Below, piece by piece: positions 197 to 10,761 of a DNA stretch of 15,671 bases. The translations under genes were made by a program, and so were the position numbers. This DNA comes from Candidatus Omnitrophota bacterium. GTDB taxonomy: Bacteria > Hinthialibacterota > Hinthialibacteria > Hinthialibacterales > JAKPRU01. The notes under the pieces were generated by a model, which saw only the letters and a program-made list of their open reading frames with translations, ran no database searches and was not told the origin of the DNA. Location: the NCBI GenBank assembly GCA_029557025.1, contig JAKPRU010001064.1, positions 1-15,671 of the forward strand, given 5' to 3'. Positions within the stretch are counted from its first letter, which is position 1; the number at the start of each line of letters is the position of its first letter.

Positions 197-2088
197 CACA
201 GCCATCTTTTCGCCCAAATTTCCAGAACAAACAGTATCCAGGCTTTTTGCACTTCGGTTGAAGACCCGCCATTCCTGGCGGCCTGGATCACTTCCCGAAT
301 GTTCTCTTTTCGGAACAGGCTTTCAATAAACGTCTCTTTGGAGAGCAGCGTATCTTCCACATACCGGCCGAACTTATCCTGCATCCACAAATCCAGCGGA
401 ACGGGAAATCCTTTTTTGGGGCGTGTGAGAATGGAGTCCGGCAGACGGTCATGCGCAAACCGTCGTACCAGGTACTTGGTGATATACTTTCCATTCGCAT
501 CGCGCTTGATCTTTCGTTCCGGCGGGCGTTGCGCCGCCCAAGCCACCAAGCGGTGATCCAGAAACGGAACCCGCAGCTCAATGGAGGTTGCCATGGTCAT
601 CTTGTCCGCCTTCATCAGGAGATCTTCCACAAGCCAATCCTGACAGTAGGCATATAGAACTTGGTGAAGCGGCTCTTTCGCACGGACCGCCCGGTAATAC
701 CCGGCAATGATCTCCTGAGAGTCCGCATACTTTGGCGCATCCGGCCACAGAGTTATCTTTTCCGGTGTTGTAAAGAAATCCGTCATATAGGGCCGGAACA
801 CCGCGTTCCTCTGCGTAAGCGGGATGTTCAGGCGGTCGATTCGCTCGACTGCGCGAGTGTTTCCCAGTAATCGAAACAACGCTCGAGGCAGCGTATCTCG
901 AAGGAAAGACGGAAGACGGTGCAGCATTCGGATCTTGTCCCAATAGGCCGCGGCGCGGTCCAGCGTATATCCCGCAAAAACTTCATCCGCTCCTTCCCCC
1001 GAAAGAACGACTTTCACATGTTTTGCCGCGAGTTTTGAGACGAAATACAGGGGTATCGAGGCCGGATCGGCCAGCGGTTCATCGGTGTGCCACGCAAACT
1101 CCGGCAGAAAATCGACGAAATCCTGCAAGGTGATTTCAATTTCGTGGTGATCGGTCTTGTATCGCCGGGCAATTTCCCGCGCGTAGGGCAATTCGTTGAA
1201 TGCGTGCTTATCGGCGAGGGCAACGGAGAAGGTACTTAGCGGCGTGTTGTGTACTTCCGCAACCGCCGAGGCTACCGTGCTGGAGTCCAGACCGCCGCTC
1301 AGAAGGATTCCTACCGGAACATCCGCAATAAGCCGACGTTTGACCGCATCCAGAAACAACTCCGAAAACTCCCGGGAATCGTCTTCCTCATCCGTCGGCA
1401 TCGATTCCTCCGGGTAAGGAATTTCCCAATAACGATCCGGAACAGGATCGGTCTTCCCTGTTTCGAGTGTCAGTGTGTGTCCCGGTGGAAGTTTTCGGAT
1501 ATCTTTCCAGATCGTTCCCGGTTGGGGGACATACCGGAATGTGAGGTAATTCCAGATCGCCTCCAGGTTCAGCTCTTTGGGGATGAATCCTGTCGCGAGG
1601 ATGGATTTGATTTCCGACGCGAAAAGGAACATGTTTCCCCGCTGCGCATAATAGAGAGGCTTGATTCCCATACGGTCGCGGGCCAGGAACAAGCGTTGAT
1701 TCCGCTCATCCCAGATCGCGAAGGCAAACATGCCAATCAATTCCTGAACACAGCGAGGGCCGAGTTCTTCGTACAGGTGAAGAATGGTTTCCGTGTCGGT
1801 TTTGCTGGAGAATCGGTGTCCCTTTTTCAGGAGATCCTCGCGCAGTTCCCGGTAATTGTAGATCTCCCCATTGAAGATGATCCGGCAAGTCTGATCTTCG
1901 TTTGTGATGGGTTGCCTGCCGGTGGAGAGATCGATAATGCTGAGCCGACGCATCCCCATCCCGAAGGAACCCTGGAGGTAATGCCCTTCATCATCGGGAC
2001 CGCGATGGCGGATCACACGGCACATCTCCGTAATGACGCGCTCATCGACAATCCCGTCCGTTTTCCATATTCCCACAATTCCGCACAT
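196..2088 (-). CDS. asnB: Asparagine synthetase, glutamine-hydrolysing
   Basis: This 630-aa class II amidotransferase makes asparagine (or amidates a related carboxylate) from glutamine and ATP in the cytoplasm. I start it at MCGIVGIW so that Cys2 becomes the N-terminal nucleophile of the glutaminase domain; a GGAG ribosome site sits about 5 bases upstream. Visible glutaminase motifs are RLSIID (about residue 48), NGEIYN (73-78) and KTDTE (96-100). The synthetase half has the ATP-pyrophosphatase P-loop SGGLDS (264-269) and, further on, SGEGADEVFAGY. The length is typical of AsnB. It is followed, with a one-base overlap, by a glycosyltransferase. This arrangement is common in exopolysaccharide clusters, where such enzymes may act on sugar acids or cell-surface intermediates instead of free aspartate. 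The enzyme family is certain; the true acceptor is inferred. Confidence 0.95.
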   Translation of the reverse strand: MCGIVGIWKTDGIVDERVITEMCRVIRHRGPDDEGHYLQGSFGMGMRRLSIIDLSTGRQPITNEDQTCRIIFNGEIYNYRELREDLLKKGHRFSSKTDTETILHLYEELGPRCVQELIGMFAFAIWDERNQRLFLARDRMGIKPLYYAQRGNMFLFASEIKSILATGFIPKELNLEAIWNYLTFRYVPQPGTIWKDIRKLPPGHTLTLETGKTDPVPDRYWEIPYPEESMPTDEEDDSREFSELFLDAVKRRLIADVPVGILLSGGLDSSTVASAVAEVHNTPLSTFSVALADKHAFNELPYAREIARRYKTDHHEIEITLQDFVDFLPEFAWHTDEPLADPASIPLYFVSKLAAKHVKVVLSGEGADEVFAGYTLDRAAAYWDKIRMLHRLPSFLRDTLPRALFRLLGNTRAVERIDRLNIPLTQRNAVFRPYMTDFFTTPEKITLWPDAPKYADSQEIIAGYYRAVRAKEPLHQVLYAYCQDWLVEDLLMKADKMTMATSIELRVPFLDHRLVAWAAQRPPERKIKRDANGKYITKYLVRRFAHDRLPDSILTRPKKGFPVPLDLWMQDKFGRYVEDTLLSKETFIESLFRKENIREVIQAARNGGSSTEVQKAWILFVLEIWAKRWL

Positions 2089-2443
2089 GGATTCTCCAGG
2101 TCCTTCAGGTCTTGATTGATCCTCACCCCCCAGTATGGAGAGGGGGAGTGTCACCCTGTCATTCCGGCGAAAGCAGGAATCCAGGCCGAATGTTTGAGCG
2201 TAATGACGTTTTCTGCGAGTGTAAAGGATGTGGAAATGTTCCCGAATATCGAATCAGAAGGGTTACAGACGCTTGATGGGATTTATCTTTTTGCAGGAAT
2301 ATCAGGGGACTGGAATGATTGGCTGCAAAGGAGTACCCAGACATCCCCCTGCCCGGGACCGTTAGAGCCATCCGGATAGAACTCACTCGGCACGAGGCAG
2401 CGAAATCCGGCTGGGCTGTCTATGTCTGTACTCGGATGCTTCC
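2089..2443. other. Intergenic spacer upstream of asnB with hairpins
   Basis: These 355 bases separate the AsmA-like stop from the asnB start and hold no convincing gene. Two short hairpins lie close to asnB: C-rich 2124-2131 pairing imperfectly with G-rich 2143-2150, and the palindromic repeat listed separately. A weak minus-strand promoter candidate is TTTACA (plus 2220-2225) and TACGCT (plus 2197-2202) with a 17-bp spacer; its -10 is poor. No T-rich intrinsic terminator follows the AsmA-like gene. Confidence 0.5.
2155..2184. repeat. REP-like palindrome (GTCATTCC...GGAATCC type)
   Basis: The stretch holds ATTCC at 2161-2165 and GGAAT at 2176-2180, flanked by CCTGTC and CCAGG, and forms a stem with a GAAA-containing loop and one mismatch. 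The core 'GTCATTCC(G)GCGAAAGC(n)GGAATCCAG' is a widely dispersed short repeat known from many bacterial genomes, including the related Neisseria dRS3-type ATTCC/GGAAT elements. It lies about 70 bases upstream of the asnB start, within its probable leader. Only one copy was noticed in the window. Confidence 0.6.
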
Positions 2444-4573
2444 TTACGAATCGGATTGGGCATCGACTTTCAATGTTGCATTCAGGTTTTTCCATTGGAC
2501 CGGGATTTCGCTCGACCCCGCCAGAAGACGACTCTCGTTCAACGTTGCCCGTGCGCTGGCCTTCCAGTCTCGCTCCCGAATCCATTCGCCGCGTACTTGA
2601 ATATCTGCCTTCCCGCCGAAATCCAGCCCCTCCAACCGCAGGCTTTTCCATATCTGCTTCGCGGAGGAATAAAACTGCGCGAGATCTTTCAAATGAAGCA
2701 CAAGGTCATAAGTGATCGACTTCAGTCCCTTGGAATCCGTAGTTGCGACAGCGGTTCCTGTGAGAGTGAACAGATCGCAGGAGGATTGAATGTCCGAAAT
2801 CTCGATGGGGGCCGTGTTGTTCTGCCGCGTGATCTGCGCGGAGAAATCCCATTGGGGAAGTGTGAGGCTCTCCCACTTGGGTTGTTTGGCTGAAATGGAA
2901 ACATTTCCGGTCAGTGATCCTTCCTGGCGTTGGATCACCTGGCTGTTCATACGGAGTTCCGAGGCGGAGAATGTTGCACTGGGAACGACAAGGTTGGCCA
3001 TTGCCGTTACAAGATTCAGGTGTTTTTCAGTCGGGTGAATAGAGAATTTCGTCTCCAGGTCTGCCATGCCGGAAGGAGTGTCTTTTGCCGCCGCGCCGGG
3101 AAGTGCGAGAGTCCAGAGGCGATCCAGCGACAAGTTTTTGCTCTGAAGATCCCCATCCATTTCGAGCGAAGGCGAAGCTTTTCCCGAGAGGTTTCCAACG
3201 ATCCGGCAAAGCCCCGGCGCATCGAGCGAAATGCGATCCGCCGTAAATGCTTTCCAGCCTGCGCTTGTGATCTGACCGATGGACAGGTTCAGCCGAGAGA
3301 CATCCAGCGCACGTTCTCCCGCCTGAAGGCTATCGACCTCTGCGGAGAATTTCAGCGTGCCTTTCTCAATGCCGGTTTGTGGATGGATCGTGGATTGAAA
3401 ATCCAGCTGACCCGCCCGAGTTTTGATATGAAATCCGGGTCTTGAATACTCAAAAGGATCAAGAAATACATTCATGGACACATCGCCTGTCTGGGTTGAC
3501 GGGATATTGATTTGTCCTGATGCGGAAGCGATTTTCAACGGAGGGGTATTCCGGCCGCTTGAGAACGCAACCTGACTCAGGTTGATCGCGGTCTGCGCGG
3601 AGAAGGGCGACAGGGAGGCGATTTGCATAGAGATCAAACCGGGCGGATTCTGTGCGGCTTCCATCGCCCCCAGGCGAAGAAGAACATCCAACGGTCCGGT
3701 CGGCGGGCAGGTTGCCGAACAGGACGCCCCGTTTTGAAGGTTTGATGGAATCCACTTCGGAACAAACGATGCCGGAAGCCAGCCGAACCCGTCCGTCCGC
3801 AAAGTCATTGACGCGCCTTTATCCTGCGGAGAGAATCCTTGTGTGCGAGTCTCCACTTCGACCTTTGATCCGTCGGGGGATTTCGCGCTTCCGATCAGGT
3901 GAAGTCGCTCCGCCTTCATATCCCGTTTGATAGAGATATTCTTAAGTTCGATGTTTCCTCCGTCTATTGCGGCACGAAACTTCCCATCTGTGATCTTGAA
4001 ATCCCCCAGCAAGTTCATACATAAGTCCTCCACCGTTGTGAGGATTTTACGCAGGTTGTCCGGAGTGAATACTTTTCCGGATTTTTCAGTCTTTTCCCCA
4101 CCGCCCCCCTGGATCGCAACATCCGGTCTGTCGATCTCGAGAGCGACTCTCCGGCCGGCTTCCGTTCGCTTCCAGCCTACGTCAATCGCGGGGACGGCAA
4201 TGTCCAATCCTTTCGCAAGCCCGGATGGGGAGTGAAGCTCACGGAGGCTTACTTCACCCTCGCCCAGCACCGACCATTTCAAGACCAACTTGTCCGCACT
4301 CAGCCGCCGGGTCTCGCCTTCTTTGGGGGCGATTTCAACCGCCACGTTTAACAGAGACGGCTGCAAGAATGGCGAGACAGTCGCCCGCTGCCATTCGGCT
4401 TTTACACCATGGGAGGCAATCTGTTTTCCAATCCATTCCTGACCCGACCCGGTGGTCAGAAACCAATACATAGCCAGATACGCGATCAGGTACAATCCTG
4501 CAAGAATCCCGACAATGACCAGGAGGAATTTTCTGCCTCGACGACCTGATAAAAAGAACTTTCTTCCGTCCAT
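2444..4573 (-). CDS. AsmA-like inner-membrane-anchored protein
   Basis: This is a 709-aa protein with a short basic N-terminus, one transmembrane helix at about residues 15-38 (KFLLVIVGILAGLYLIAYLA region), and a long periplasmic part. The latter is built of alternating beta-strand patterns such as 'LNVAVEIAP', 'LVLKWSVLGEGEVSLRELH' and 'GNIELKNISIKRDMKAERLHLIG'. This is the profile of the AsmA/TamB/DUF748-type superfamily, which bridges the periplasm and is linked to outer-membrane biogenesis and lipid transport. I start at MDGRKFF because a GGTGG ribosome site precedes that ATG; the upstream TTG at 4609 lacks one. It ends rather abruptly in LKVDAQSDS, inside what looks like another beta repeat, so a shortened C-terminus is possible. 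No specific ortholog is recognised. Confidence 0.7.
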   Translation of the reverse strand: MDGRKFFLSGRRGRKFLLVIVGILAGLYLIAYLAMYWFLTTGSGQEWIGKQIASHGVKAEWQRATVSPFLQPSLLNVAVEIAPKEGETRRLSADKLVLKWSVLGEGEVSLRELHSPSGLAKGLDIAVPAIDVGWKRTEAGRRVALEIDRPDVAIQGGGGEKTEKSGKVFTPDNLRKILTTVEDLCMNLLGDFKITDGKFRAAIDGGNIELKNISIKRDMKAERLHLIGSAKSPDGSKVEVETRTQGFSPQDKGASMTLRTDGFGWLPASFVPKWIPSNLQNGASCSATCPPTGPLDVLLRLGAMEAAQNPPGLISMQIASLSPFSAQTAINLSQVAFSSGRNTPPLKIASASGQINIPSTQTGDVSMNVFLDPFEYSRPGFHIKTRAGQLDFQSTIHPQTGIEKGTLKFSAEVDSLQAGERALDVSRLNLSIGQITSAGWKAFTADRISLDAPGLCRIVGNLSGKASPSLEMDGDLQSKNLSLDRLWTLALPGAAAKDTPSGMADLETKFSIHPTEKHLNLVTAMANLVVPSATFSASELRMNSQVIQRQEGSLTGNVSISAKQPKWESLTLPQWDFSAQITRQNNTAPIEISDIQSSCDLFTLTGTAVATTDSKGLKSITYDLVLHLKDLAQFYSSAKQIWKSLRLEGLDFGGKADIQVRGEWIRERDWKASARATLNESRLLAGSSEIPVQWKNLNATLKVDAQSDS

Positions 4574-4784: not shown

Positions 4785-6524
4785 ATGTCCACTGTCACAA
4801 ATGTTGAATCGACTTCTCCCAGACCCCCGTTTGCACAGAAATCCTCAGTTCAGCCATCCGCTGGGGCGTTTGAGAACACCCTGGTTGCGGCAGCGGACTC
4901 GCAGCCGAAACAGAAGGGGCAGGCTGCTCCTGCTCCCGCCCGCGCCTCCGCCCTGGAACTGCCTCCGGCCTCCGTCAACTTCAAACCGAAAAGCGCTGTT
5001 TCCACGCCGTCCTCCGTTCGCCTCTTCCGACCGCTTCCACTTGCCGGAAACACCCAAACATCGTCAACGATCATTGCTCGACCGGTTAGCCCAACCGCTA
5101 CACAGTCCGCGCCGGTTACAGCCCGGCAGGCCGCGTCCGAGGGTCTGGCGGAGCAGGTCGTTTCCGATTACAGAGAATATCAACAAATGATGGACGATAA
5201 GTCTCAGGCTAATGCCGGATCGTCTCAGGCCATACCCGAATCGGTGGACCTTCGACCGACTTCCCCGCTGCCGGTCTCGCCCGAAACCGCCATTCCGTAC
5301 AGACAAGCCATCGCACAAAGTGAACAGAGTGCTGTTGTACAGGAACCATCTATCGGAGCGTCTTTCCGGGAACCCAGATCGCCATTTCCAATTCTGACCG
5401 CACCCGCCGGCCCGGCCGCTTCCACTACCCCGGTGACCCCGGTTGTCACGGAATCTGAGCCGTCCCAACCTGCCAAACAGAAGACACCTATCGGGGAGGC
5501 TCTCGCTGCCTATAAAGACGAACAGTTGCTCTCTAATGCAGGCGGAGACAACTACATCCGCACAGGCGAAACCATGGAGGTCGATCCCGACTACGATCAC
5601 ACGCAGTTCTCCCAGCGTGTCGGCAAAGACCTGATCGATGCAAAAGAAAACTTGAAAGATGCCGTGGGGGACCTCTCGACCGGATCGGTAACACACTACC
5701 GGGATGAATCGGGCGAAATCCAGGTACGAAAACATCGGGGATTCTTCAAGACTCTGGGCAATTTCGGAAAAGACATTGCCAGTGGAGTAACCCTGGGGAT
5801 CTATCGTCCCAAGGGGCAAGAGGCTCCAACGGGGCTTAGCCGTGTAGTGTACCCGTTCAAGAAAGTTGTTGTGGATGGAGTGATGAAAGACTTGGTTATC
5901 GGTATTCCGAGCAGCCTGATTCATGCCGGGGAGCATACAACTCTGGCGGCTCTGAACACCAGCGAAGCCGTACCGGATGCCACTATCGGGAACGCCCCCG
6001 CCGGAAGGCAACTCACTACATCAACATTCGATAATACCCAGGTCGGTGCGAGCTATGTGGCCGATGTGATGCCCGCCGGTGAAGCCTGGGAACGGGTTGG
6101 AGCCGCCGGGCAGGATGGAAACTGGGGAGTGCCGATTGCCACTAACCTGAAGGCTTCCGAGTACAACTCGACCGATCCGCGATTCCTTGGCGTACGCAAT
6201 ACGGGATTTCGGAAAGGCGTTGAGACCATCGGGACTTTAGGGATGGGAGCGGCTGTGGCCGCAGCAAATGCTCCCACGGCAGCCCTGACCGCCTCCGCAG
6301 CCATGAATCCGGGAACCACTGAAATACCCGCAGAGGAAATCATCCGGAAAGAGCCTTCTTCGCCCATGCCATCTCCGGCGGAAATGGACCCTGAACTGGC
6401 TGCTGCCCTCGAAGCCCTCTATAAGGCGCGAGAGAGGCAGGCCCCCGGATTCACACAGACCAGCCCCTCGCTTACAACTTCTGCTGCCGCCGATCGACGT
6501 CCGAAACTCTGGGAAAACCCGTAA
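4785..6524 (+). CDS. Unknown Pro/Ser/Ala-rich cysteine-free protein
   Basis: I do not recognise this 579-aa protein. The ATG has AGGAG 8 bases upstream. Residues 1 to about 235 are low-complexity and rich in Pro, Ser, Ala and Thr, so probably disordered. Residues about 236-300 look helical (EALAAYKDEQLL, DLIDAKENLKDAV). Residues about 300-480 look like the folded core (RGFFKTLGNFGKDIASGV, VYPFKKVVVDGVMKDLVIG, a Gly/Asp/Trp-containing GQDGNWGVP stretch). An Ala-rich stretch follows at 482-508, then a Pro-rich tail with one short charged helix (533-551). It contains no cysteine at all and no signal peptide or clear transmembrane helix. It stands alone between a sigma-54 promoter candidate and a strong terminator. 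A secreted, appendage-length or structural role is possible, but nothing in the sequence proves it. Confidence 0.75.
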   Translation: MSTVTNVESTSPRPPFAQKSSVQPSAGAFENTLVAAADSQPKQKGQAAPAPARASALELPPASVNFKPKSAVSTPSSVRLFRPLPLAGNTQTSSTIIARPVSPTATQSAPVTARQAASEGLAEQVVSDYREYQQMMDDKSQANAGSSQAIPESVDLRPTSPLPVSPETAIPYRQAIAQSEQSAVVQEPSIGASFREPRSPFPILTAPAGPAASTTPVTPVVTESEPSQPAKQKTPIGEALAAYKDEQLLSNAGGDNYIRTGETMEVDPDYDHTQFSQRVGKDLIDAKENLKDAVGDLSTGSVTHYRDESGEIQVRKHRGFFKTLGNFGKDIASGVTLGIYRPKGQEAPTGLSRVVYPFKKVVVDGVMKDLVIGIPSSLIHAGEHTTLAALNTSEAVPDATIGNAPAGRQLTTSTFDNTQVGASYVADVMPAGEAWERVGAAGQDGNWGVPIATNLKASEYNSTDPRFLGVRNTGFRKGVETIGTLGMGAAVAAANAPTAALTASAAMNPGTTEIPAEEIIRKEPSSPMPSPAEMDPELAAALEALYKARERQAPGFTQTSPSLTTSAAADRRPKLWENP

Positions 6525-6673: not shown

Positions 6674-7609
6674 ATGTTTCGGATTTCTTTACCCTGCCTG
6701 GTTCTGCTGTCGATTTGCATGTTCCCCGGATATAGCTTGGCCAAAAAGGAGATCCCCGGCGTTCACGCGGCATCTCTTGATCTGGCCTCCCCGGTTGCGG
6801 TTCTCCCGTTTACCTGGAACGAGGCGGTCAAACCGAAAGTTCGAGAAAACCTTGCAGACCTTCCCCGGCTCGCGCGCGAGATCTTTGCGGAGTCTTTCGC
6901 AACCCTGCCTTATGAAGACATGGACGAAGCGGTGGTTCTCAAGAAGATCCGCGATGCAGGATTCCTGGAAGAGAACCGTTGGCAGGCAATGAAATCAAGC
7001 GATCTGGCATCCCTCATCGGCGCGGGAACACTGGTGGAAGGTGAGATCACAAAAGCCTCTTTGGGCAAGAGTGGCCTCTGGAACCGCACAGTGTTCGGCA
7101 TTCGGATTTCCTTTGTCGATGGAAAATCCGAAATGTTGCACTGGCAGGGAACGGCGGAATCCAAACGGTACGGCGGACTTCTACTTCATACTGGGCTGGC
7201 GACCGAATTCCTTTCCGAACTCTCCAGCAACGAGGCGCAACGCCGACGGACGTTAGAAAACACTGTGAGAGATGCCATGCGCAAAATCCTGTTGACTCTT
7301 CCGCCGACCGAAAATCTGGTGATTCTCACGCCGGTGATAGAAACCGGCCAGGTAAAAATTGAACCCGGTCCGCCGAAAGAGATTACCGTTGAAATCCGGG
7401 GGACTCCCGATTGTATCGCCACATTCGATATCGGATCGTTTCGAAGATACATCCCGCTTTGGGAAGTGGAAAGCGGGATGTATCGAGGCAGCTATATCGC
7501 CCAGCCGAACGATTCGGCCGCGAGTCAGGAAGTGCGGGTTCGTTTGGAATCCCGCCTTGGGGTGGCCGCGGTACGGCGAGTCGAACAGGAGGCAGTGACA
7601 CTCCCATGA
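6674..7609 (+). CDS. Exported CsgG/TolB-N/GNA1162-like protein A
   Basis: This 311-aa protein has a signal peptide (hydrophobic residues 5-20, likely cleavage after SLA at about 23). There is no lipobox: Cys15 is preceded by Ile, not Gly/Ala/Ser. Residues about 38-210 follow a pattern seen in the CsgG/TolB N-terminal/GNA1162 (DUF799) group: 'SPVAVLPFTW' first strand, a helix, 'DEAVVLKKIRDAGFLEENRW', 'LASLIGAGTLVEGEITKAS', then paired strands 'VFGIRISFVDGKSEMLHWQGTAES'. Residues about 236-305 form a separate beta-rich module (ITVEIRGTPDCIATFDIG, then PLWEVESGMYRGSYIAQPND), resembling small Ig-like sandwich domains of envelope proteins. AGGA lies 8 bases before the ATG. The next gene overlaps by 4 bp and is its diverged paralog. 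A periplasmic or outer-membrane-associated role is likely; the partner is unknown. Confidence 0.7.
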   Translation: MFRISLPCLVLLSICMFPGYSLAKKEIPGVHAASLDLASPVAVLPFTWNEAVKPKVRENLADLPRLAREIFAESFATLPYEDMDEAVVLKKIRDAGFLEENRWQAMKSSDLASLIGAGTLVEGEITKASLGKSGLWNRTVFGIRISFVDGKSEMLHWQGTAESKRYGGLLLHTGLATEFLSELSSNEAQRRRTLENTVRDAMRKILLTLPPTENLVILTPVIETGQVKIEPGPPKEITVEIRGTPDCIATFDIGSFRRYIPLWEVESGMYRGSYIAQPNDSAASQEVRVRLESRLGVAAVRRVEQEAVTLP

Positions 7610-8604
7610 AGGCGCCTGTCCGTATCCATTATGTTCTGTTCGTCGCTTTGGTCTGCATTCCAGCGAGTTCTGTTCAATCTTCTGTTTCGAAAAAAATAGT
7701 CGTTGCTCCAAAGATCGATCTCAGCAGACCGGTCCGTGTGGCCCTTTTGCCGATGGAGGCGAAAGAGAGTTGGGGAGAAGGTTCGCGCCATATCCGCCGC
7801 GCTTTCTATGGTGAATTACTGGAAATCCCAGAGTTTCGTCTCATGGAACCAGCTGCGGTAGACCACCTTCTTGAGAAAAAGGGTCTTTTACAGGACAGTC
7901 GCTGGAGCGAGCAAGATCCCAAAGTCCTCGCCGAGTCACTCAATGTGGATTTTCTGATTTATCCCCGGTTGACTGCGTGGACACAGCGATATTTCCTTTT
8001 ACAGTCGCAGACCTCTGTGGCTGTCCGGGCATCCATGGTCGATGGACACACCGGTGAGCGGGTTTGGGAGGCGGAATCGAAAGCGAGATTCCAGAAGGGC
8101 CTGACCGGCATTCCAACCGGCCTAACGGCTCTCGCTTTAGAACCTTTGCGCGGCATGAGAAAACGGTTCCTGTATGAGTGCGCATTCGATGCCACCCACG
8201 GGCTGTGGGAATGCCTTATGCCGCAACCGACAAGTCAGGAACAGGCAAGAGAATCCGCTCGGCAAATCAAGTCAACCTCTTCCAAACAAAAGGAAAGGGC
8301 GAATACCCGGTCCGAATCAAAGGAACCCGCTTTGGCGATCCGCGCTGTCGATGCTGTTTTGGAGGAGAATACGCTGACAGTCATCATCGAAGGAACAGCG
8401 GGCTGTGCGGCGTCATTTTTCTTTGATGACATGAATCGGTTGTTTCCGCTCACCGAAATCGCTTCGGGCCGATATCGGGGACAATATCGAATCCCTCCGG
8501 AAATTGCGCTTTCCCCCACGAAAGTGGAGGTTCGTCTTGTTTCTCCGGATGGCCGCGCTGTGATCGGCCAAGTGGAACACGCCGACAATGTGAAATCCCA
8601 GTAG
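7606..8604 (+). CDS. Exported CsgG/TolB-N/GNA1162-like protein B
   Basis: This 332-aa protein starts at the ATG overlapping the previous stop (ATGA), with AGGAGG 13 bases upstream. It has an N-terminal hydrophobic signal segment (about residues 8-22). It repeats the plan of its neighbour: 'RPVRVALLPME' first strand, 'AVDHLLEKKGLLQDSRW' aligning with 'VVLKKIRDAGFLEENRW', 'LAESLNVDFLIYPRLTAW', and a 'SMVDGHTGERVWEAESKA' strand pair. A charged Gln/Lys/Ser linker at about 205-245 leads to the shared C-terminal module (LTVIIEGTAGCAASFFFDD, then PLTEIASGRYRGQYRIPP, 254-324). The two are clearly tandem paralogs by order and motif, though diverged. Both have a single Cys in the same place in the C-module (GTPDC and GTAGC). 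It is probably an envelope protein working with its neighbour. Confidence 0.7.
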   Translation: MKAPVRIHYVLFVALVCIPASSVQSSVSKKIVVAPKIDLSRPVRVALLPMEAKESWGEGSRHIRRAFYGELLEIPEFRLMEPAAVDHLLEKKGLLQDSRWSEQDPKVLAESLNVDFLIYPRLTAWTQRYFLLQSQTSVAVRASMVDGHTGERVWEAESKARFQKGLTGIPTGLTALALEPLRGMRKRFLYECAFDATHGLWECLMPQPTSQEQARESARQIKSTSSKQKERANTRSESKEPALAIRAVDAVLEENTLTVIIEGTAGCAASFFFDDMNRLFPLTEIASGRYRGQYRIPPEIALSPTKVEVRLVSPDGRAVIGQVEHADNVKSQ

Positions 8605-8622: not shown

Positions 8623-10761
8623 ATGAATCCCATCGAAAAATACATCGGTTGCCTGGTCGGGCTTGCCGTCGGCGATGCGTTCGGGACAAACGCGCACGGC
8701 GGGAATCCGGACCGGTCCAAGGCTCCATCGGATCATTCGCTGAGTCGACTGCCGGGCGGATTTCTTCTGTACACGTCAGACACGCAACGCGCTTTGCTGT
8801 TGGCGGAATCGCTGGCCGAATGTGGGAGACCGGACCCGGAGGATTTGTGTGCCCGATTTCTTCGCATGTCGGAGGGTCCGAAACACCTGCCGCTGGGAAG
8901 TTTCCGGCGACCGGGGCGGAATTTCCGCATGTCCATCGATAAATTGAAAGCGGGTTGGGCCTGGGATCAATCGGGAGCGGACTCGCCCGGAATGGGCGCA
9001 GCGGCCCGAATCGCACCCTTGGGATTGGTTGCCACGGACCGGACCGAATTGATCGAGCAGGCTACTCGCCTGTCCCTGCCGACTCATCGCGATCCGAGGG
9101 CGATTGCGGCAGCTGTTGCGGTCGCGTTTTTGATTTTCGATGAAATAAGTGGACAGAGTCGAGGAGAACAGGATGAGACCGTCGCATCGGTGCGCCTGCG
9201 ACGAACCATCGAAACCGTGTTGGAAGCGGAAAACCGCATGGACAGGGATTACCGCAACCGGATTACGCTGGATTCCGCGCCGTTCCTTCACCAGATGTCG
9301 GAAATGCTGCAAGTGGTGGAAACCTGCCTGGACCTGGATCGGGAGAGAGCGTTGGAACAAATTGCGGGGCGGGCATCCGAACTGTTCGGCGCCCCGGTTT
9401 CCGCTTCAGCGGGCCTGTCACTTGCCGGAGTTTCATCGGCAATCTGGTTCGTATCGAGCCGGGCGTTCGATTTCGAGGCGGCCATCACGGAAATCCTCCA
9501 CGCGAGGGCGGACGCGGGAAGTGTCACTACCATCGCAGGGGCGCTTTGCGGGTGTATTCGCCCCGATACGATCCCTGTTGCCTGGAAAGACCTGCTGATC
9601 AATGTGGACCAGATCATACTCCGCGCAAAACGTCTGGCCGGTGTTGAAATCCCTCCCGGTCTGCTGCGTGACCTCCGTCAATTCGAGCGAGCCTGTACCG
9701 AACAGTTTCATCTTCGCCGGAAGGTCCATCGAACACCTCTGCGGGCCTATTCGGAGGCAACAGCGGAAAACGATCGCGTTTTTGGAGTTCGTGTCATTTC
9801 CGGACGATCGGGAGATCCCTGTGTGTTTTTCTTCGATGGAAACCTGGACCTGTGTGGGCTGTTCGACCTGGGGCGCACCTTTCCGCTTCGTCCTCCCGAT
9901 ATCCGCCGCATGAATTACCTGTTTGTTACGCACAGCCATATCGACCATTTCATCGGATTCGATCACATTCTTCGCCATTCACTCAACCGCCCGAACCTAC
10001 TCCACGTTTTCGGTCCTCCACATATTGCCGCGCAGGTTCAACACCGCCTGCGAAGTTATATCTGGAATCTGCGACGATCGCTTCGATTAGATATTCGGAT
10101 CCATGAGATCGACGAATCGGCTGTCACCATATCGAATATCTCGATGCAGACAGCATTCGCCCGCCGTGAAGAGGAGGCCTCCCATCCGCACCACGGGGTC
10201 ATTTTTGAGACGGAGCGGTTCTTATTTCGAGCGGCAACTTTGCGCCATGGAATGCCCTGTCTGGGATATGCCATAGAGGAGCCTGCCTTTGTCCGAGTTG
10301 ATAAGGACCGTCTGGAATCTTCCGGCCTGTGCCCTGGACCCTGGCTGAATGCGCTGAAGACTGCCTGGCGTTCCGGTACGCTGGATACAACGACGCTTGA
10401 TATCCGGGGCAAAGAGTATCCTGCGCGGCCGTTGGCGCAGGATTTACTGGTGGAGTATCCGGGGCGGAAAGTCGCTTATGTGGTAGACACTGTGTTTACC
10501 GACGAAACGCGGGCACGCATTGTCGAACTGGCGCGTCATGCCGACCTGTTTCTCTGCGAGGCGGCTTTCTCTCAGCAACTGGATGCAGAACAGGCCAAAC
10601 GCAAATTCCATCTCACAGCATTTCAGGCCGGGACCCTCGCCAGAGAGGCCGATGTAAAACGTCTCCACATCTTCCACTTCTCACGTCGTTATCAAACAAG
10701 ACCAATGATTCTGATCCGCGAAGCCAGACAAGCCGCCGGGGGAATTGAGGTCACCTATTGA
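8623..10761 (+). CDS. ADP-ribosylglycohydrolase-like / RNase Z-like MBL fusion
   Basis: This is a single 712-aa ORF with two folds. Residues 1 to about 345 are an ADP-ribosylglycohydrolase (DraG/ARH) fold: GCLVGLAVGDAFG near the start, YTSDTQRALLLAESL (50-64), GMGAAARIAPLGL (123-135), THRDPRA (154-160), DAGSVTTIAGALCG (297-310). The metal-binding motifs deviate: TDDT is TSDT, DxDT is DAGS, and the usual Glu after GDxxG is replaced. Residues about 386-712 are an RNase Z-like metallo-beta-lactamase with all expected ligands: HSHIDH (437-442), RHG His542, VVDT Asp622, HLTA His663, HFSRRY His685. The ATG at 8623 gives the typical ARH opening MNPIEKYIGCL; a TTG at 8611 is an alternative. Neither has a clear ribosome site. 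It begins 18 bp after the paralog pair, so probably the same operon. The substrate is unknown; nucleotide or RNA phosphodiester hydrolysis is inferred for the C-half. Confidence 0.85.
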   Translation: MNPIEKYIGCLVGLAVGDAFGTNAHGGNPDRSKAPSDHSLSRLPGGFLLYTSDTQRALLLAESLAECGRPDPEDLCARFLRMSEGPKHLPLGSFRRPGRNFRMSIDKLKAGWAWDQSGADSPGMGAAARIAPLGLVATDRTELIEQATRLSLPTHRDPRAIAAAVAVAFLIFDEISGQSRGEQDETVASVRLRRTIETVLEAENRMDRDYRNRITLDSAPFLHQMSEMLQVVETCLDLDRERALEQIAGRASELFGAPVSASAGLSLAGVSSAIWFVSSRAFDFEAAITEILHARADAGSVTTIAGALCGCIRPDTIPVAWKDLLINVDQIILRAKRLAGVEIPPGLLRDLRQFERACTEQFHLRRKVHRTPLRAYSEATAENDRVFGVRVISGRSGDPCVFFFDGNLDLCGLFDLGRTFPLRPPDIRRMNYLFVTHSHIDHFIGFDHILRHSLNRPNLLHVFGPPHIAAQVQHRLRSYIWNLRRSLRLDIRIHEIDESAVTISNISMQTAFARREEEASHPHHGVIFETERFLFRAATLRHGMPCLGYAIEEPAFVRVDKDRLESSGLCPGPWLNALKTAWRSGTLDTTTLDIRGKEYPARPLAQDLLVEYPGRKVAYVVDTVFTDETRARIVELARHADLFLCEAAFSQQLDAEQAKRKFHLTAFQAGTLAREADVKRLHIFHFSRRYQTRPMILIREARQAAGGIEVTY

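Follow-up and report, generated by a model that had tools for sequence, protein, structure and literature searches.

A conserved single-chain fusion of an ADP-ribosylhydrolase fold with an RNase Z-like domain in a Candidatus Omnitrophota genus

One chain, two domains

The stretch of DNA analysed here (the window) is the 15,671-nt contig JAKPRU010001064.1 of assembly GCA_029557025.1, a Candidatus Omnitrophota draft genome of 4.69 Mb that is ~91% complete. On its forward strand, an uninterrupted open reading frame (ORF) at 8623–10761 encodes a 712-residue protein in which an ADP-ribosylhydrolase (ARH) fold is covalently joined to an RNase Z-like domain. The methionine of the ATG start at 8623 is found at the same place in both other genomes of the genus; an alternative upstream start in the ORF list is TTG 8611. 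The first half matches PF03747 (ADP_ribosyl_GH) over residues 9–312 with 140.5 bits (Pfam cut-off 26.2), and the second matches PF12706 (Lactamase_B_2) over residues 421–512 with 48.9 bits (cut-off 27), while a PF00753 match of 20.6 bits falls below its Pfam cut-off of 22.7. An earlier note made from the sequence (the original prediction) had proposed a structure prediction of the chain. The resulting AlphaFold2 model contains two confident domains (mean predicted local distance difference test score, pLDDT, 91.0) with a weak linker between them, but its predicted template modelling score (pTM) is 0.65, so the mutual placement of the domains is not fixed. The chain is laid out as follows.

8623..9642, forward strand: ARH-fold domain, residues 1–340, non-catalytic by its motifs (Pfam profile, alignments)
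9643..9774, forward strand: linker, residues 341–384, with a helix at 351–369 followed by a low-confidence segment at 369–380 (pLDDT <50; AlphaFold2)
9775..10758, forward strand: RNase Z (metallo-beta-lactamase) domain, residues 385–712 (NCBIfam and Pfam profiles)

Both genus mates encode the same fusion, on a 118,715-base contig in G001 (96% identical) and an 81,667-base contig in G002 (87% identical), each labelled 'Candidatus Omnitrophota'. Among 61 genomes searched, that of the window included, the fusion is present in all three of this genus and absent from all six that belong to a second family of its order. A domain-architecture search of protein clusters, in which the best 8000 candidates by shared words were scored, recovered at least seven clusters carrying both domains (P0001–P0007), with 56–99% identity to the window protein. 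About 80 residues are missing from the N-terminus of P0005 and of P0007, and alignments and trees were built without P0001, which is 99% identical to the window protein. The fusions form one clade in the tree of the ARH half (support 100/100) and one in the tree of the RNase Z half (96/99). The ratio of nonsynonymous to synonymous substitution rates (dN/dS) against G002 is 0.169 for residues 1–340 and 0.044 for residues 385–712; against the very close G001, where changes are few, it is 0.50 and 0.095 for the ARH and RNase Z halves, respectively. Purifying selection thus acts on both halves.

The profiles and the relatives thus bear out the original prediction of a single uninterrupted ORF joining the two halves, and the covalent fusion is real. 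The opposite outcome, homologues split into two genes by a stop near codons 346–385, is not what we find: no stop lies there in the window, G001 or G002, the fusion is whole in both mates, and the two domains stand in one chain in at least seven clusters. These copies exclude assembly error or recent accidental fusion. The small size of the family in protein searches and the lack of an ARH neighbour in the fetched flanks of all 78 stand-alone loci of the related PRK02126 family (below) would fit an artefact or a fresh accident, but the separate assemblies with long contigs, the retention of both halves across 56–99% identity, the single clade in both trees and the low dN/dS leave such an origin a negligible chance.

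An RNase Z half with a tRNA arm

As the original prediction held, the second half contains the complete RNase Z metal-ligand set, HxHxDH followed by H, D and H (H437, H439, D441, H442, H542, D622 and H685). The residues and the arm lie at the following positions.

9931..9948, forward strand: metal motif H437-x-H439-x-D441-H442, invariant in 7/7 fusions and in 16/16 rows of the RNase Z alignment
10246..10248, forward strand: metal ligand H542, invariant in 7/7 fusions
10288..10458, forward strand: flexible arm (tRNA exosite), residues ~556–612, with a GP-like GLCPGP at 568–573 (AlphaFold2 model)
10486..10488, forward strand: metal ligand D622, invariant in 7/7 fusions
10558..10560, forward strand: E646 of the HEAT-like motif, here the variant CEAA, invariant in 7/7 fusions
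10609..10611, forward strand: H663 of the HST-like motif, here the variant HLT, invariant in 7/7 fusions
10675..10677, forward strand: metal ligand H685 (FHFS), invariant in 7/7 fusions

The nuclease residues therefore appear intact. GLCPGP departs at one position from the GP motif GxPxGP of an arm of ~55 residues, and the model of the RNase Z half fits RNase Z–tRNA complex structures. The fusion shares with bacterial RNase Z (1y44, 2fk6, 4gcw; E. coli 2cbn) the fold, all metal ligands, the HEAT/HST-type E and H and a flexible arm with a GP-like motif. The two are only 27–29% identical by structure, however, and the fusion differs in its extra N-terminal ARH domain and in leaving the first ~50 profile positions, the PxKxRN region, unmatched; no PxKxRN motif is seen in residues 385–436.

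Profile scores place this half beside the canonical family. TIGR02651 (RNase_Z) gives 128.3 bits, far below its curated cut-off of 292.95, in an alignment that starts at profile position 50, and NF002558 (PRK02126, 'ribonuclease Z') gives 304.8 bits over residues 385–707, just below its NCBIfam cut-off of 315; this profile matches all seven fusions at E <1e-3 (best 8.1e-92). In the RNase Z tree, which took 31 of the 78 stand-alone loci and has only three canonical rows, 41 rows (34 stand-alone PRK02126 and 7 fused) split from the canonical side with support 100/100. L063 was omitted from this tree and from alignment A4, and for L031, whose tblastn range holds a stop, the open frame 2005–3012 was used instead. 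Judged by profiles and tree, the half is RNase Z-like by its parts, falls outside the TIGR02651 equivalog and is best placed as a sister branch of PRK02126 rather than a strict member.

PRK02126 proteins are the closest relatives of the RNase Z half (33–43% identical, with the same invariant residues) and occur in Myxococcota, Thermodesulfobacteriota, Nitrospinota, Nitrospirota and Methylomirabilota. From 169 matched loci 80 were kept; 78 of these are stand-alone, none with an ARH match, whereas the fused copies group on a branch apart from them. None of the 13 named PRK02126 genomes (0/15 with G001 and G002) passes the canonical cut-off of NF000801, but in at least six of the 13 a further RNase Z-like protein scores 70–109 bits against parts of the profile. 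The 61-genome set contains six genomes with the PRK02126 type and seven with a strong canonical RNase Z (266–371 bits); the two groups do not overlap, which shows little because ~0.7 overlaps are expected by chance. At three Nitrospinota loci a tRNA-Glu (CTC) gene without CCA lies close upstream of the stand-alone PRK02126 gene and on its strand (L045 238–312, L062 5851–5925 and L068 7832–7906), and at L090 a tRNA-Glu gene lies ~0.8 kb upstream. Eleven tRNA genes were found in the 78 loci; five encode CCA by script, so the PRK02126 family also occurs with tRNA sets that include an encoded CCA. A contig from a metagenome-assembled genome labelled Klebsiella pneumoniae (L041) carries a PRK02126 gene with 39% identity to the RNase Z half of the window protein, which makes the label look doubtful.

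An ARH fold with a decayed metal site

The original prediction read ARH motifs in the first half. The fold, the family profile and some pocket motifs are present, but the metal-ligand motifs are degraded.

8773..8781, forward strand: degraded first metal motif T51-S52-D53 (ARH3 T76-D77-D78; alignments)
8989..9009, forward strand: pocket loop GMGAAAR, residues 123–129 (alignment); R129 is Q in 3/7 fusions
9073..9114, forward strand: block SLPTHRDPRAIAAA, residues 151–164, invariant in 7/7 fusions
9511..9522, forward strand: degraded second metal motif D297-A298-G299-S300 (ARH3 D314-x-D316-T317; alignments)

The six-residue di-metal site of ARH3 (T76, D77, D78, D314, D316 and T317) is thus incomplete, its counterparts being T51, S52, D53, D297, G299 and S300. 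Relative to ARH3, DraG and ARH1 structures (7aks, 6d36, 2woc, 6g28), the D77 equivalent is gone in all five fusions that cover that part and the D316 equivalent in all seven, while other ligands drift: T51 is replaced by N or M in 3/5 fusions and D297 by H or N in 3/7 (P0004, P0005 and P0006). The ARH3 study that provides this numbering (PMC8141533) describes the acidic ligands as critical for activity. The ADP-ribose removal that had been suggested is therefore unsupported, the D77 and D316 equivalents being lost in every readable fusion, and the di-metal catalytic centre, with it probably hydrolysis, appears to be lost. ARH3 D77A is inactive yet binds ADP-ribose 23-fold tighter according to the same text, so sensing of an ADP-ribose-type ligand by the ARH half is possible. 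A known ARH-family pseudoenzyme, ADPRHL1/ARH2, likewise lacks catalytic residues (PMC10601310, PMC7390403, PMC7050489), a parallel that implies no orthology; unlike the fusion, it is a vertebrate heart protein, and the accessible parts of two of these sources mention no nuclease fusion (PMC10601310, PMC7390403).

Ligand decay extends to free-standing kin. Twenty such relatives entered the ARH tree (P0008, P0010–P0026, L187 and L192); the metal motifs are intact in four (P0022, P0024, P0025 and L187), mixed in L192 and lost in fifteen, with P0021 and P0023 scored on the second motif alone. Intact proteins separate the lost free-standing group from the fusions, which makes at least two losses the simplest reading, and the fusions join intact P0025 with support of 89/81 only. 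Most of the free-standing kin carry strongly basic C-terminal tails of ~100 residues: the charge over the C-terminal 60 residues is +9 to +17 in 17/20, the exceptions being P0025 (RG-rich, +2), P0020 (+4) and P0024 (−5), against −4 to +4 in 12 other ARH proteins. Where most of these relatives have a basic tail, the fusion has its nuclease, a hint that this ARH group may work in an RNA context.

Other ARH proteins were seen in different contexts: P0009 and P0052 carry PF00782, PF05706 and further Pfam domains, P0049 carries PF00294 and P0054 carries PF20208. The window's genome (G000) also has a second ARH protein (L002, G000:C667:2724-3572; 109.7 bits) within a 589-residue open frame.

A putative role in tRNA maturation

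Bacterial tRNAs whose genes lack CCA are processed by an RNase Z-type cut that precedes CCA addition. In G000, 33 tRNA matches were obtained, three of them without a locus; none of the 30 genes read encodes CCA, and an RNase Z-type cut is thus expected. By RNase Z score, the fusion (130 bits) stands far ahead of the next match in this genome (41 bits), and no match in the 14 genomes of the class passes the curated RNase Z cut-off. With moderate confidence, we read the fusion as an active RNase Z, likely the 3′-trailer nuclease of the genus for CCA-less pre-tRNAs, carrying a selected non-catalytic ARH module. The RNase Z half would cleave the 3′ trailer. The ARH half, tethered by the flexible linker, would localise or tune the nuclease, either through an old pocket that binds an ADP-ribose-type nucleotide or through a surface that docks protein or RNA. 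Ordinary pre-tRNA is the likeliest RNA target, since the RNase Z half retains its tRNA-binding arm and no CCA is encoded in the tRNA genes read; the ADP-ribosylated nucleic acid of the original prediction is a less likely one.

The chief weakness of the tRNA reading is the order mates that manage without the fusion. None of the 15 tRNA genes read in G003, G005 and G008 encodes CCA (for the mates, the 30 top-scoring loci among 255 matches in six genomes were used), and these mates also have no strong RNase Z match. All six order mates do share a metallo-hydrolase of 271–291 residues (L111, L114, L115, L117, L118 and L119), 39–64% identical among themselves and scoring 32–47 bits to TIGR02651; none of the genus loci set against it is clearly equivalent. 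It is a candidate for their tRNA 3′ processing and could be a replacement partner or an unrelated protein.

What the ARH half contributes can be explained in other ways. It may be purely structural or RNA-binding, an extra tRNA contact or a dimer platform with no nucleotide ligand, a possibility that we consider rather unlikely. The drift of ligand positions among the fusions, the basic tails of the free-standing kin (RG-rich in P0025) and the helix at 351–369 that runs into the flexible linker are all consistent with such a scaffold, whereas the invariance of old-pocket residues 151–164 in 7/7 fusions, against 115 of 340 positions invariant over the whole ARH half, argues against it, although this block could itself be structural.

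Quite improbable is a two-domain eraser, in which the RNase Z fold would act mainly as a phosphodiesterase on nucleotide modifications of proteins or RNA, namely adenosine monophosphate (AMP) or ADP-ribose, and the ARH pocket, unable to cut the glycosidic bond, would capture ADP-ribose and present the pyrophosphate to the metallo-hydrolase. The role is kept in play by a report that RNase Z from E. coli, yeast and human can take AMP off proteins or peptides (PMC12663964), a precedent for RNase Z on nucleotide-modified protein; it differs from the fusion in that its accessible part mentions no ARH domain and the AMPylase there is SelO. The tight binding by inactive ARH3 D77A, equivalent to S52 here (PMC8141533), and the action of ARH-type enzymes on phosphate-linked ADP-ribose at RNA ends (PMC11833690) also fit. 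Against an eraser, no SelO AMPylase match occurs in any of the 14 class genomes, Tpt1/KptA is found in none of the three genus genomes, the tRNA arm is retained and the relative placement of the domains is not well fixed (pTM 0.65). In addition, P0004, P0005 and P0006 have H or N in place of the ARH3 D314 equivalent, a residue important for ADP-ribose binding in ARH3. It is also quite improbable that the ARH half retains hydrolase activity, through an altered metal site or without metal, and that the chain is bifunctional as the original prediction suggested, given the missing D77 (5/5) and D316 (7/7) equivalents, the replaced T51 (3/5) and D297 (3/7) and the critical role of the acidic ligands in ARH3 (PMC8141533).

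Just upstream of the fusion lie two tandem paralogous genes, 26% identical, with no visible link to its function.

6674–7609, forward strand: first tandem gene
7606–8604, forward strand: second tandem gene, GNA1162-like lipoprotein (PF05643, 39.6 bits)

The order of this pair and the fusion is kept in G001 and G002, and only 18 bases separate the second stop from the fusion ATG, so the genes may share one transcript. Further upstream, 4785–6524 (forward strand) encodes a 579-residue protein that has no match in Pfam, NCBIfam or PADLOC; its counterparts in the other two genomes of the genus are 95% and 83% identical to it.

The RNase Z and ARH parts of the fusion are each known. Their combination was not found in the literature searched, in agreement with the original prediction, which knew of no described system of this architecture. 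A more specific version of the favoured tRNA reading, which we regard as unlikely, is that a built-in ADP-ribose reader controls the activity or place of a tRNA-maturing RNase Z and couples 3′-end formation to the NAD/ADP-ribose state of the cell; its ligand would be free ADP-ribose, a nucleotide derived from nicotinamide adenine dinucleotide (NAD) or an ADP-ribosylated partner. If this is true, the parallel ligand decay in basic-tailed kin would mark a wider bacterial class of RNA-associated ARH readers. In general, an apparently intact RNase Z-type enzyme joined to a decayed ARH domain suggests that, in these little-known bacteria, an ADP-ribose-type signal or partner may bear on a basic step of RNA processing.
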